Source: Pseudomonas sp. St316
GTDB taxonomy: Bacteria; Pseudomonadota; Gammaproteobacteria; Pseudomonadales; Pseudomonadaceae
DNA: 64,000 nucleotides
Direction: 5' to 3'
NCBI RefSeq assembly: GCF_018325905.1
Contig: NZ_AP021901.1
Span: 2,852,001-2,916,000, forward strand
In this document: piece after piece, positions 3,157 through 58,312 of the stretch
Layout of the letters: the number at the start of each line of letters is the position of its first letter
Numbering within the stretch: the first letter of the stretch is position 1
The notes under the pieces: model-generated
Told to the model about the DNA's origin: nothing
What the model saw: the letters and a program-made list of their open reading frames with translations, nothing else
Database searches by the model: none
Translations under genes and position numbers: made by a program

Positions 3157-3319
3157 ATCGCGAGCAAGCTCGCTCCCACAGTAGATCTTCAGTGAACACA
3201 TATTTGTGATCCACAGTAGATCTTCAGTGAGCACATATTTGTGATCCACAGTAGATCTTCAGTGAGCACATATTTTGTGATCCACAGGGATCTATTGTGG
3301 GAGCGAGCTTGCTCGCGAT
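3157..3319. repeat. REP pair enclosing three tandem 35-bp repeats
   Basis: A REP in reverse orientation (3157-3180) and one in forward orientation (3296-3319) flank three head-to-tail copies of a 35/35/36-bp unit at 3181-3215, 3216-3250 and 3251-3286. The units start GTAGATCTTCAGTGA and end GTGATCCACA. Copy 1 differs from copy 2 by A/G at one position, and copy 3 has one extra T. These elements fill most of the 450-bp gap between pepN and the next gene. The remainder (3320-3565) is the leader and probable promoter region of the YCF48-like gene, where I could not identify a clear promoter. Confidence 0.9.
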
Positions 3320-55256: not shown

Positions 55257-56210
55257 GTGTGTGTGCGCTTGAACATCTTCAGCATCGCTTCCCCTGACGC
55301 CACGCCCCAGGCCCGATTGGCCAGCGAGGCCCGAGACTGGCTGATCCTGCTGACCTCGGGGCGCGCCACCGTGGCCGATGCACGGGCCTTGCGCCTGTGG
55401 TGCGGGCAAAGCCCCGAACATGCCCGGGCCTTCGAACAGGCCAAGGCGCTGTGGCAGGGGCTGCAACCTGCCGCCGCGGCGGTGCAGGCGCCCCGGCATT
55501 TCGGCCGTCGGGCGTTATTGGGTGGCGCCATCGCGGCGTCGGCAGCTTTGCTGTTGATCCGCGCCACGGTGCCCGGTGGTGTTTCCGGACTGGGAGCCGA
55601 CTACATCACCGATGTCGGCGAGCAGCGCCGGGTGGAACTGGCCGAGGGCGTCAGCCTGGAACTCAACACCCAGACCCGCCTCAGCCGTCGCCCGCTGGCC
55701 GATGGCGAACAAGGGTTGCAATTGCTCAGCGGCGAGATTGAAGTGCAGGGGCGCAGTGCCCAAGTAGTCAGCGTCCAGGCCGGCGCCGGCTGGATCAGCG
55801 CCGCCCGGGCACGCTTCAACATCCGCTACACCGACCAGAGCGTCTGCGCGACCTGCCTGGAGGGCGTGGTGCAGGTTGAGGTGCAAGGCCAGCGGTTTCG
55901 CCTGGAACCGGGCATGCAGCTGACGTACGACCCTGGCCGGGTGGGCGCTCCCCAGCGTGCCGATGTGTCAGCAGCGATTGCCTGGCGTGAGCAGGTCCTG
56001 GTGTTCAACGACGCGACCCTGGCCAGTGTCATCGATGAAATCAATCGCTATCGGCCCGGTATGTTGCTGCTGCTCAATCGCGAACTGGGCCAGCGTAAGG
56101 TCCAGGCGCGGTTTCGCCTCGACCAACTGGCGGGCGTGGCGCTGTTGATCCGCGATGCCTATGGCGCCAAATGCACTGAATTGCCAGGTGGGGTGGTGGT
56201 GCTGAGCTGA
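55257..56210 (+). CDS. vreR: FecR-like anti-sigma regulator VreR
   Basis: A 317-residue anti-sigma regulator. The cytoplasmic N-terminal domain is at ~21-70 (ARDWLILLTSGRATVADARALRLWC). A twin-arginine (GRRALL) precedes one membrane segment (~86-102). The periplasmic FecR domain (DVGEQRRVELAEGVSLELNTQT) and a C-terminal STN-like domain (NDATLASVIDEINRYRPG) follow. The Arg pair fits the reported Tat export of FecR proteins. The start is uncertain: no ATG precedes the conserved part, and GTG 55257, GTG 55263 or TTG 55269 are possible. The convergent hxcW gene follows across the repeat array. Confidence 0.87.
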   Translation: MCVRLNIFSIASPDATPQARLASEARDWLILLTSGRATVADARALRLWCGQSPEHARAFEQAKALWQGLQPAAAAVQAPRHFGRRALLGGAIAASAALLLIRATVPGGVSGLGADYITDVGEQRRVELAEGVSLELNTQTRLSRRPLADGEQGLQLLSGEIEVQGRSAQVVSVQAGAGWISAARARFNIRYTDQSVCATCLEGVVQVEVQGQRFRLEPGMQLTYDPGRVGAPQRADVSAAIAWREQVLVFNDATLASVIDEINRYRPGMLLLLNRELGQRKVQARFRLDQLAGVALLIRDAYGAKCTELPGGVVVLS

Positions 56211-56235
56211 AGCCAGTGGCGCCAGGCCAGGCCCC

Positions 56236-57247
56236 ATCGCGAGCAAGCTCGCTCGCACACTGGATTTTCAGCGGACATAAAATCCATGTGCACCCAAGCC
56301 CCTGTGGGAGCGAGCTTGCTCGCGATGGGGTCGGCACAGCTGGCATTATCTTCAACGGGCCCACCGCTATCGCGAGCAAGCTCGCTCCCACATTGGATTT
56401 TTGGCGGACACAAAACTTATGTGCCCCCCCGGCCCATTCTGTGGGGTAGGTTGGCACACACTGGATTTTCAGCGGATATAAAATCCATGTGCACCCAAGC
56501 CCCTGTGGGAGCGAGCTTGCTCGCGATGGGGTCGGTACAGTTGGCATTATCTTCAACGGGCCCACCGCTATCGCGAGCAAGCGCTCCCACATTGGATTTT
56601 TGACGGACACAAAACTTATGTGCCCCCCGGCCCATTCTGTGGGGTAGGTTGGCACACACTGGATTTTCAGCGGACATAAAATCCATGTGCACCCAAGCCC
56701 CTGTGGGAGCGAGCTTGCTCGCGATGGGGTCGGCACAGCTGGCATTATCTTCAACGGGCCCACCGCTATCGCGAGCAAGCGCTCCCACATTGGATTTTTG
56801 GCGGACACAAAACTTATGTGCCCCCCGGCCCATTCTGTGGGGTAGGTTGGCACACACTGGATTTTCAGCGGATATAAAATCCATGTGCACCCAAGCCCCT
56901 GTGGGAGCGAGCTTGCTCGCGATGGGGTCGGTACAGTTGGCATTATCTTCAACGGGCCCACCGCTATCGCGAGCAAGCGCTCCCACATTGGATTTTTGGC
57001 GGACACAAAACTTATGTGCCCCCCGGCCCATTCTGTGGGGTAGGTTGGCACACACTGGATTTTCAGCGGACATAAAATCCATGTGCACCCAAGCCCCTGT
57101 GGGAGCGAGCTTGCTCGCGATGGGGTCGGCACAGCTGGCATTATCTTCAACGGGCCCACCGCTATCGCGAGCAAGCGCTCCCACATTGGATTTTTGGCGG
57201 ACACAAAACTTATGTGCCCCCCGGCCCATTCTGTGGGATAGGTTGGC
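56236..57247. repeat. Five-copy tandem array of a ~198-bp REPIN-containing unit
   Basis: After a single reverse REP (56236-56259), units begin at 56261, 56462, 56660, 56858 and 57056 (periods 201, 198, 198, 198). Each unit holds a forward REP, a spacer, a reverse REP and two related flanks (starting TGGATTTTCAGCGGACA and TGGATTTTTGGCGGACA). Units 1, 3 and 5 carry GGACATAAAATCC and GGCACAGCTGG. Units 2 and 4 carry GGATATAAAATCC and GGTACAGTTGG. Unit 1 alone has an intact right REP and seven Cs; the others lost two bases of the REP and one C. The array stops 5 bp before the hxcW stop codon. It accounts for the whole vreR-hxcW gap. Confidence 0.96.
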
Positions 57248-57251
57248 TTGG

Positions 57252-57863
57252 TCACTCTAGCGGCCCGAGCACCTGTCGATACTGTTCTGCCCCCTGAGGT
57301 GTCTGGCGAGTCAGGCTGATTTCGACGCCCACCGGGTTTTCCTGGCGGTTGCCGCTGAGCTTGCGCCAGCCTTTTTCCGTGTCCCAGAACCGCAGCCCGG
57401 CATCGCTGACTTCACTCAGTACGGCCACGCCCGGGCCGGGTGCTGGCAGTGGGTAGCGATCACGGGGCTGGCCTTGGGCGCGGTAAAGCGTGTCGCCCTT
57501 GAGCCACCAGCGCACCCGTTGCAGTTCGCCTTCCTGGGCCGCCGCCACGCGAATCACATCCAGGCGAAAGCCCCGGCCTTCGGTGCTGCGCACGGTGAGG
57601 GCGGGCGGGGCGGTCGAGGGCGCGTCGTCGACACCGGGTTTGACCGGCTCACTCAGCTCGATGCTGGCGCGCAGCGCGACGTCGCGCTCCAATTGGTTCA
57701 ACACCCGCAGCAGCGCTTCAGTCTGTTCGGTACTGGCCTGCAAGTGGCTGTCGGCACGGGTCACGCTGTCCAGCCCGCGCCAGGCGATCAGGCTGACCAC
57801 CGCCATCAGCAGGATCGCCACCATCACTTCCAGCAAGGTGAAGCCCGTCTGCCGGGCGCTCAT
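57252..57863 (-). CDS. hxcW: Type II secretion pseudopilin HxcW (GspJ-like)
   Basis: A 203-residue pseudopilin with a short basic leader, prepilin peptidase site QTG-FTLLEV (Glu at +5) and a hydrophobic helix (MVAILLMAVVSLIAWRGL). The C-terminal domain is long, as in GspJ. It is part of the pseudopilus tip. The ATG at 57863 overlaps the hxcU stop by 4 bp. Its 3' end abuts the repeat array. Confidence 0.9.
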   Translation of the reverse strand: MSARQTGFTLLEVMVAILLMAVVSLIAWRGLDSVTRADSHLQASTEQTEALLRVLNQLERDVALRASIELSEPVKPGVDDAPSTAPPALTVRSTEGRGFRLDVIRVAAAQEGELQRVRWWLKGDTLYRAQGQPRDRYPLPAPGPGVAVLSEVSDAGLRFWDTEKGWRKLSGNRQENPVGVEISLTRQTPQGAEQYRQVLGPLE

Positions 57864-58312
57864 TGAAGTTGCACCCGCCCGGCGGCACTGCGTTGCACAG
57901 TGAGACTGTTCAGGCCGTCCGACAAGCGGATCTGCAAGGGCTCGCCGAGCCATTCGGCATTCAATACGACCCGCTGCCGGGGTTCCACGCGAACCTCCAT
58001 CGACGGGCTCTGCCAACGACGTGGGTGCAATTGCGGGTCGTCCTTGAAGCGATCCAGTCCGCTGCCTTGATCGGCGCGACGACTGAAGCCAAACCCCTTG
58101 GCGTCCCAGCGCCAGGTAATCGGTCGCCCGTCGGTGCGGGCTTCGGTCTGGGCCAGCTGCAACAGTTGCACCAGTCGCTCACCGTCCTGGCGCAGCAGCT
58201 TCAATGGATCCGGCTTGATGCTCAGGCTCACGGCGGCGCTGGCAATGCCGATGATCACCAGCACCACCATCAGTTCGATCAGGGTGAAACCGCGTTGCTT
58301 GCCGAGGTTCAT
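57860..58312 (-). CDS. hxcU: Type II secretion pseudopilin HxcU (GspH-like)
   Basis: A 150-residue pseudopilin, MNLGKQRG-FTLIELMVVLVIIGIAS. The length and the C-terminal part fit GspH minor pseudopilins. The start at 58312 begins directly before the prepilin leader; longer in-frame starts run into hxcP on the other strand. It is coupled to hxcW and divergent from hxcP (117 bp between). Confidence 0.88.
   Translation of the reverse strand: MNLGKQRGFTLIELMVVLVIIGIASAAVSLSIKPDPLKLLRQDGERLVQLLQLAQTEARTDGRPITWRWDAKGFGFSRRADQGSGLDRFKDDPQLHPRRWQSPSMEVRVEPRQRVVLNAEWLGEPLQIRLSDGLNSLTVQRSAAGRVQLQ

Follow-up and report, generated by a model that had tools for sequence, protein, structure and literature searches.

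Two alternating unit types in a tandem REPIN array between convergent vreR-like and hxcW-like genes of Pseudomonas sp. St316

Introduction

How does an ordered tandem cluster of REPINs, the hairpin-forming doublets of repetitive extragenic palindromic (REP) sequences, grow at one place in a genome, and why does it persist there? This question is raised by a 64,000-nucleotide stretch of the Pseudomonas sp. St316 genome (NZ_AP021901.1; a single-contig genome, one assembly), hereafter the window, in which five head-to-tail REP-bearing units fill the junction between a vreR-like and an hxcW-like gene. In their treatment of such clusters, Bertels and Rainey (2011, PMC3116915) describe 16 ordered tandem REPIN clusters in SBW25, the largest comprising four REPINs and one REP over more than 700 bp; the origin of REPIN clusters is left open in that account, and a 'second mechanism' of cluster formation is called for. 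The St316 array is a tandem REPIN cluster, a kind already known from SBW25 since 2011, and very probably represents a selfish repeat that was passively amplified at a tolerant site, perhaps with terminator-like activity.

Results

Five compound units of two types make up the array

Tandem Repeats Finder (TRF) identified a 198-bp period with 5.0 copies at 56256-57247 (matches 97%, score 1901), a span of 992 bp that divides into head-to-tail units of 201, 198, 198, 198 and 197 bp (Table 1). Down units 1-5 of the unit alignment, columns 21, 80 and 85 read C, T, C, T, C, confirming the A-B-A-B-A order proposed in the initial annotation, and neighbouring units differ at 7, 4, 3 and 5 columns, compared to 3, 1 and 2 columns for next-but-one units. 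A 2-bp deletion (columns 126-127) and a 1-bp deletion (column 169) are common to units 2-5 and absent from unit 1, in agreement with the earlier suggestion that these four units derive from a mutated copy. Units 2 and 5 each carry one private substitution (149A and 191A, respectively).

From left to right, the order is REP0, loop 1, REP', linker, REP, loop 2 and a degenerate right arm, followed by loop 1 again and so on. The cores at 56241, 56308 and 56374 are mutually inverted with start spacings of 67 and 66 bp; two inverted REPs of the same class thus lie close together, as befits a REPIN. For comparison, the spacings given for the two commonest REPIN types of SBW25 in the REPIN sections of PMC3116915 are 71 and 110 bp. 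Placing the start of the element at 56236 takes in REP0, which lies outside the repeating unit, and the count of cores is consequently 11 and not ten as initially given: seven intact and four with the same 2-bp deletion. The latter are the second cores of units 2-5, reading GAGCAAGCGCTC, and an intact inverted pair is therefore found in unit 1 alone, where a full pair had been attributed to every unit. The nested half-flanks described earlier correspond to the REPIN loops. Loop 1 and loop 2 are identical at 36 of 47 positions, against a mean of 12.2 and a maximum of 24 in 10,000 composition shuffles, and we accordingly read them as the loops of two related REPINs.

At the inner borders the remnant right arm is joined to loop 1 with almost no sequence in common. 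The same fused border is present at all four borders between units, the linkers differ among units at two columns only, and the right end of unit 5 continues into the end of the hxcW-like gene. Near-identical REPINs, flanks included, thus follow one another head to tail as in an ordered tandem cluster, but the unit is not one REPIN with its flanks: it is compound, running from loop 1 through REP', linker, REP and loop 2 to the degenerate arm. We regard the one-REPIN unit as what published clusters typically show, not as a requirement, and class the array among them with its unit as a variant.

The array REP (GTGGGAGCGAGCTTGCTCGCGAT) is identical letter for letter to the 23-base REP of class PF8 in the class descriptions of Nunvar et al. 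(2013, PMC3686654), which bears out the REPIN identity of the units. That paper counts REPs per class, gives PF8 copy numbers of 749 (F113) and 632 (P. brassicacearum NFM421) and assigns the class to orthogroup IV; its parts concerned hold nothing on the vreR-hxcW locus. In the window, the 14-base core occurs 42 times (up to 2 mismatches, both strands) compared to 1.03 expected, and a 17-base REP pattern gave 1,453 matches in the whole genome (735 forward, 718 reverse), where the reversed-pattern control gave none.

Table 1. Coordinates of the array, its parts and the adjoining genes, in window positions.
Feature	Position	Strand	Basis
REP0, left REP of the first REPIN, outside the repeating unit	56236..56255 (core 56241-56254)	+	core search; sequence
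Unit 1, type A, 201 bp, both REPs intact	56256..56456		unit alignment
Unit 2, type B, 2-bp deletion in second REP, private 149A	56457..56654		unit alignment
Unit 3, type A, 2-bp deletion in second REP	56655..56852		unit alignment
Unit 4, type B, 2-bp deletion in second REP	56853..57050		unit alignment
Unit 5, type A, 2-bp deletion in second REP, private 191A; right end adjoins hxcW-like gene end	57051..57247		unit alignment
First complete REPIN (REP0, loop 1, inverted REP)	56231..56333	+	RNA and DNA folds
Alternative hairpin (REP', linker, second REP of unit 1)	56304..56391	+	RNA fold
Unit 1/unit 2 border, remnant right arm of second REPIN fused to loop 1	56438..56475	+	comparison with left and right borders
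FecR-type gene (vreR-like)	55257..56210	+	Pfam FecR, DUF4880
T2SS minor pseudopilin J gene (hxcW-like), scanned part; 3' end faces array	57252..57866	-	Pfam T2SSJ, N_methyl; listed open frame to 58016

With one mutation per site, growth by single units cannot produce the alternation

In order to rationalise the alternation, we searched in reverse for duplication histories under one mutation per site. With single-unit duplications only, the reverse search found no history giving the five units, whereas a history of three duplications exists once two-unit blocks are allowed; by our reading it passes through 1, 2, 3 and 5 units, with a B-A block duplicated last. When units are duplicated one at a time, all those descended from a changed unit stay next to each other, and A-B-A-B-A is therefore out of reach under one mutation per site. 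Since single-unit steps can reach 60 of the 120 orders possible for these five units, the alternation amounts to a logical exclusion and not to a rare event, and growth by single units only is excluded under one mutation per site. The history put forward in the initial annotation, an A-B dimer followed by growth of a block of about 396 bp, fits in its two-unit step; its dimer-first route is not singled out.

The polarity of columns 80 and 85 was taken from the linkers of eight sources outside the array units, namely seven relatives and the paralogue L140 (G267 yielded no linker under the pattern used). A C at column 80 is shared by six of the eight (P. brassicacearum, P. zanjanensis, P. thivervalensis, G125, G388 and L140), P. 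kilonensis and G205 having A instead. At column 85 six sources have T, G205 has A, and both C and T occur within G125. For column 21 the polarity comes from L140 alone, which has C. The prevailing state, taken as the older one, is that of type A at column 80 (C) and that of type B at column 85 (T).

Relatives carry different arrays or an unduplicated block at the same junction

Among 72 fetched relative loci, both genes were measurable in 54, with a vreR-hxcW gap of 2 to 1002 bp. A REP core of the array type (up to 1 mismatch) lies in the gap of 10 relatives and is lacking in 44, a count in which decayed REPs may have been missed. All four of the closest named relatives have a REP shortly 3' of the vreR-like gene: the junction has a single REP-loop-REP'-linker-REP block in P. 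brassicacearum, P. thivervalensis and P. zanjanensis, and a tandem duplication in P. kilonensis. When 398 whole genomes were screened under a strict match criterion for the vreR-like gene end, 13 qualified, St316 included, and 10 of the 12 others were measurable. Two of these have arrays, G039 with 2.3 copies of 135 bp (gap length and both genes identical to P. kilonensis) and G125 with 3.3 copies of 134 bp, whose three units differ at 6 columns, all in A-B-A order. G388 has two unlike REPINs; in the rest there is a single block or REPIN, a lone REP, or none of the type. The search of related genomes at this junction, recommended at the outset, yielded, among other layouts, differing arrays and the unduplicated block, and the different arrays at one junction lend support to the idea that copy number can change.

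The unit sequences differ among the three array-bearing species, which argues for separate amplifications. In the gene tree these species are not grouped; as support for the placement of the window is weak (82/93, 81/87), a separate origin of the arrays rests on the differing unit sequences. The relatives also bear on whether the true locus might hold fewer units, or another number of them, than the assembly. Short-read assemblies are known to be error-prone at tandem repeats of about 1 kb, but the genome is one contig, alternating and private differences distinguish the units, and shorter arrays stand at the same spot in relatives, one of them in a one-contig genome, so that we regard an artefact as highly improbable.

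Other gaps at this junction were of separate note. At four loci (L053, L061, L078 and L082) the gap after the vreR-like gene measures 715-919 bp and has no REP cores of the array class. The 832-bp vreR-hxcW gap of a more distant species (L113, G036) contains 4 REP cores under a wider pattern, and the REPs in the gap at L154 (G267), with an extra palindrome base (GAGCAAGCTCAGCTC), belong to another subtype.

Tandem REPIN arrays are frequent in the genome

Sixteen of 20 REP-dense stretches of the St316 genome contain tandem arrays with a period of at least 100, and 13 of these score best at 134-136 bp, the exceptions being L131, L132 and L136. The four stretches lacking such an array (L127, L135, L140 and L141) were left out of the array count; the place of L140 was refetched (L181), again with none. 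Together with three more arrays from a genome REP-pattern search, this gives 19 arrays besides that of the window, 15 of them best at 134-136 bp. L132 (G000:C1:2496632-2498611) has a 364-bp unit in 5.4 copies and, at 1,980 bp, is longer than the array described here; it also lies at a convergent junction according to a simple gene finder. L136 (G000:C1:3019527-3020783) has five copies of 179 bp plus irregular copies (periods of 131, 310 and 44 bp), about 1.26 kb in total, and looks as if built by uneven steps. L131 (G000:C1:1386423-1387128) scores best at 267 bp, that is at two units, above 135, and its alternate units are closer than neighbours. Runs of at least three cores with steps of up to 400 bp account for 4 of 86 groups among the first 100 listed forward cores, which scales, as a rough inference, to about 34 arrays per chromosome. 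The exceptional status implied for the array in the initial annotation is hence not upheld, as tandem REPIN clusters are frequent both in its own genome and in print.

When 12 arrays were compared (11 others and this one, with unit 5 taken at 194 bases, where our own unit alignment has full units), 8 showed a higher mean likeness between next-but-one units than between adjacent ones. Clear alternation was seen in this array and L131 only, and weak alternation in L130, and we do not claim alternation as a general rule. In a separate observation, a 35-bp tandem repeat of 3.2 copies lies at window positions 3176-3287 between inverted REP cores at 3162 and 3301, inside a REPIN-like loop.

Compared with the ordered clusters in the parts of PMC3116915 that deal with them, the array likewise consists of tandem REPINs but has five units over 992 bp, each amounting to roughly one and a half REPINs, and exceeds in length the largest ordered cluster of SBW25; those parts mention no alternating unit types. 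They also describe GI-GIII tandem REP arrays with a compound module of 112 + 72 bp, the two largest holding 12 REPs, one more than the array here. Both systems have a compound module, but in GI-GIII two REP types alternate inside the module, whereas here a single REP class occurs in inverted pairs and whole units alternate.

The genome contains three matches to Y1_Tnp, the domain of the REP-associated tyrosine transposase (RAYT), over the cut-off (L093, L094 and L095). L095 (33.9 bits vs a cut-off of 23) has PF8-type REPINs on both sides, and the REPs next to L093 and L094 fit classes PF17 and PF19. A further locus, L140 (G000:C1:3993490-3993713, minus strand), about 1.08 Mb away, has linker and loop in common with the array. 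Of the distinct loops collected, that of L140 stands well clear of the 104 others in score, suggesting that a REP'-linker-REP piece may have been exchanged or moved together with its loop. Import of the B variant as a whole was considered and rejected: the 20-base B linker pattern is exact in units 2 and 4 only, with one other locus at 2 mismatches. The matching REPINs around a RAYT gene and the linker and loop shared with a distant locus would also suit an array built by RAYT through repeated insertion of REPINs beside or into each other, which is how the disordered clusters of SBW25 are read in the corresponding part of PMC3116915. However, separate insertions would not repeat one border or yield alternation, and in the array the fused border recurs at all four inter-unit borders with linkers that differ at two columns only; we therefore consider construction by RAYT very unlikely.

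The array lies at a convergent gene end and is predicted to fold strongly

Pfam matches place FecR-type, sigma-70-family and STN/TonB proteins on one side of the array and J and I pseudopilins of the type II secretion system (T2SS) on the other, in accordance, at family level, with the flanking genes initially annotated. The names vreR and hxcW are taken from that annotation, Pfam backing the families, and the two genes are presumably linked to P. aeruginosa genes.

The first complete REPIN is predicted to form a hairpin of -67.7 kcal/mol as RNA (z -10.2 against shuffles) and -44.1 kcal/mol as DNA (z -11.1), and the alternative hairpin one of -63.5 kcal/mol as RNA (z -10.2), suggesting that REP' could pair with the REP on either side. 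In unit 2, the pairing of REP' with the second REP is predicted at -56.5 kcal/mol, the 2-bp deletion leaving a bulge. For the whole 1041-base gap, the predicted RNA fold has -516.5 kcal/mol, a value without shuffle control. The large hairpins envisaged at the outset are thus predicted for both RNA and DNA. A terminator scan of the region found three weak terminator-like sites, with 1.6 expected. All three are on the + strand and fall within linkers (units 1, 3 and 5), and none stands at the REP stems. No known RNA family could be assigned, as all 12 Rfam matches at E <=1 stayed under the gathering score; the best, MIR9672 (34 bits vs 74 required, E 0.0003; 56304-56391, minus strand, in the REP'-linker-REP hairpins), is probably a chance hairpin resemblance.

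The unit lengths of 201 and 198 are divisible by 3, and a minus-strand open frame of 393 codons (56074-57255) runs through the array, which might be taken to encode a repetitive protein. We reject this reading as scarcely conceivable, because a unit length that is a multiple of 3 suffices to give open frames: three of the six unit frames are open (reached also by 92 of 2000 shuffles), and they are so simultaneously. In addition, the frame has no Pfam match, and other arrays often have periods of 134 or 136 bp, which break the frame where 135 keeps it.

To place arrays relative to gene ends, genes were predicted by a simple codon-usage finder trained on the window, and not taken from annotation. 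The 19 other arrays lie at 13 convergent, 6 same-strand and no divergent junctions, compared to 15 convergent and 1 divergent among 39 other REP sites and 9 convergent and 26 divergent among 114 REP-free gene pairs. The other REP sites were 40 hand-picked from the first 100 of the 735 forward cores (78-521 kb), none of them inside a predicted gene and one unassigned and dropped; three (L199, L200 and L214) contain 3-4 cores. The way in which the REP-free baseline was built, from the same stretches plus the window, makes convergent pairs scarce in it; in the whole window 6 of 39 pairs are convergent. With this limit, the convergent share of arrays (p 2.4e-8) and of other REP sites (p 2.9e-5) exceeds that of REP-free pairs, and the excess of arrays over other REP sites is borderline (p 0.0497). 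An enrichment of hairpin-forming P. fluorescens repeats between convergent genes, read as a 'least worst' location, is described in the repeat sections of Silby et al. (2009, PMC2718517); the analysis there is per repeat family, whereas here tandem arrays are separated from other REP sites.

Such a position invites the explanation that the array was selected as a bidirectional terminator or stabiliser of mRNA 3' ends, in which more REP hairpins work better. Predicted hairpins far stronger than shuffles, the REPs at the junction of the four closest named relatives and the 13 of 19 against 15 of 39 convergent sites are all consistent with it. Nevertheless, insertion tolerance at gene ends predicts an identical bias, the few weak terminator-like sites avoid the REP stems, and among the relatives 44 of 54 manage without a detected REP core and with a gap of down to 2 bp, and we hold selection for such a function to be possible but doubtful. 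Tandem REPs might also act as DNA gyrase binding sites that relieve supercoils between the convergent operons. This appears quite unlikely, as the E. coli REP has a different sequence from the array REP and the same 44 relatives lack such cores at the junction. The enrichment of arrays at convergent junctions speaks for it, as do the interactions of gyrase, IHF and DNA polymerase I with E. coli REPs or bacterial interspersed mosaic elements (BIMEs) noted in the part of PMC3686654 on E. coli. BIMEs are described there as tandemly repeated REPIN-like doublets, in which they resemble the array.

Discussion

We favour the passive amplification of a selfish tandem REPIN cluster at a tolerant site, for which the following course can be envisaged. 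A REP would have settled 3' of the vreR-like gene in an ancestor, and the REP-loop-REP'-linker-REP block is still present in close relatives. In the St316 lineage, judging from the border sequences, a second loop with its degenerate right arm would have been fused to the first to give the compound 198-bp unit. Growth to five units may then have proceeded through recombination between sister copies or strand slippage at hairpins, the alternation pointing to at least one step of two units. RAYT presumably supplies, or once supplied, the REPINs, and the tandem growth itself would most likely be due to ordinary recombination or replication error. The array probably persists because the convergent gene end tolerates insertion, and a modest stopping or stabilising of the two facing transcripts might, tentatively, come with it.

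Several points weigh against this reading. The unit count rests on one assembly, albeit of one contig, and recombination and slippage are suggested by the pattern alone. Through the linker and loop shared with L140, exchange between distant copies may have shaped the units, and an old array whose units were later replaced could stand in place of separate origins. Moreover, when the outgroup states C, C and T were imposed at columns 21, 80 and 85, no history was found with blocks of 1-4 units. The three-step history returns once column 85 is left out, and an extra event placed on the two deletions instead was tried and yielded none. The least scenario that fits would thus combine a two-unit step with one more event at column 85, which may have been a repeat mutation, a conversion or a crossover.

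A more far-reaching proposal is that, at some junctions including this one, species repeatedly rebuild their own REPIN arrays, often in two-unit steps, as a useful, copy-adjustable multi-hairpin barrier separating the facing operons, so that arrays there would be more than merely tolerated; we think this unlikely. Literature searches gave no joint publication on REPIN and higher-order repeat among the matches listed, and none on REPIN, tandem array and recombination together, neither result showing absence in print.

The locus offers a readable case of how REPIN clusters originate, as it combines the unduplicated layout in relatives, different arrays at the same spot and markers that, under one mutation per site, exclude growth by single units only. 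Many genomes lend themselves to a test of whether arrays exceed other REP sites at convergent gene ends, an excess that is borderline in the present data.
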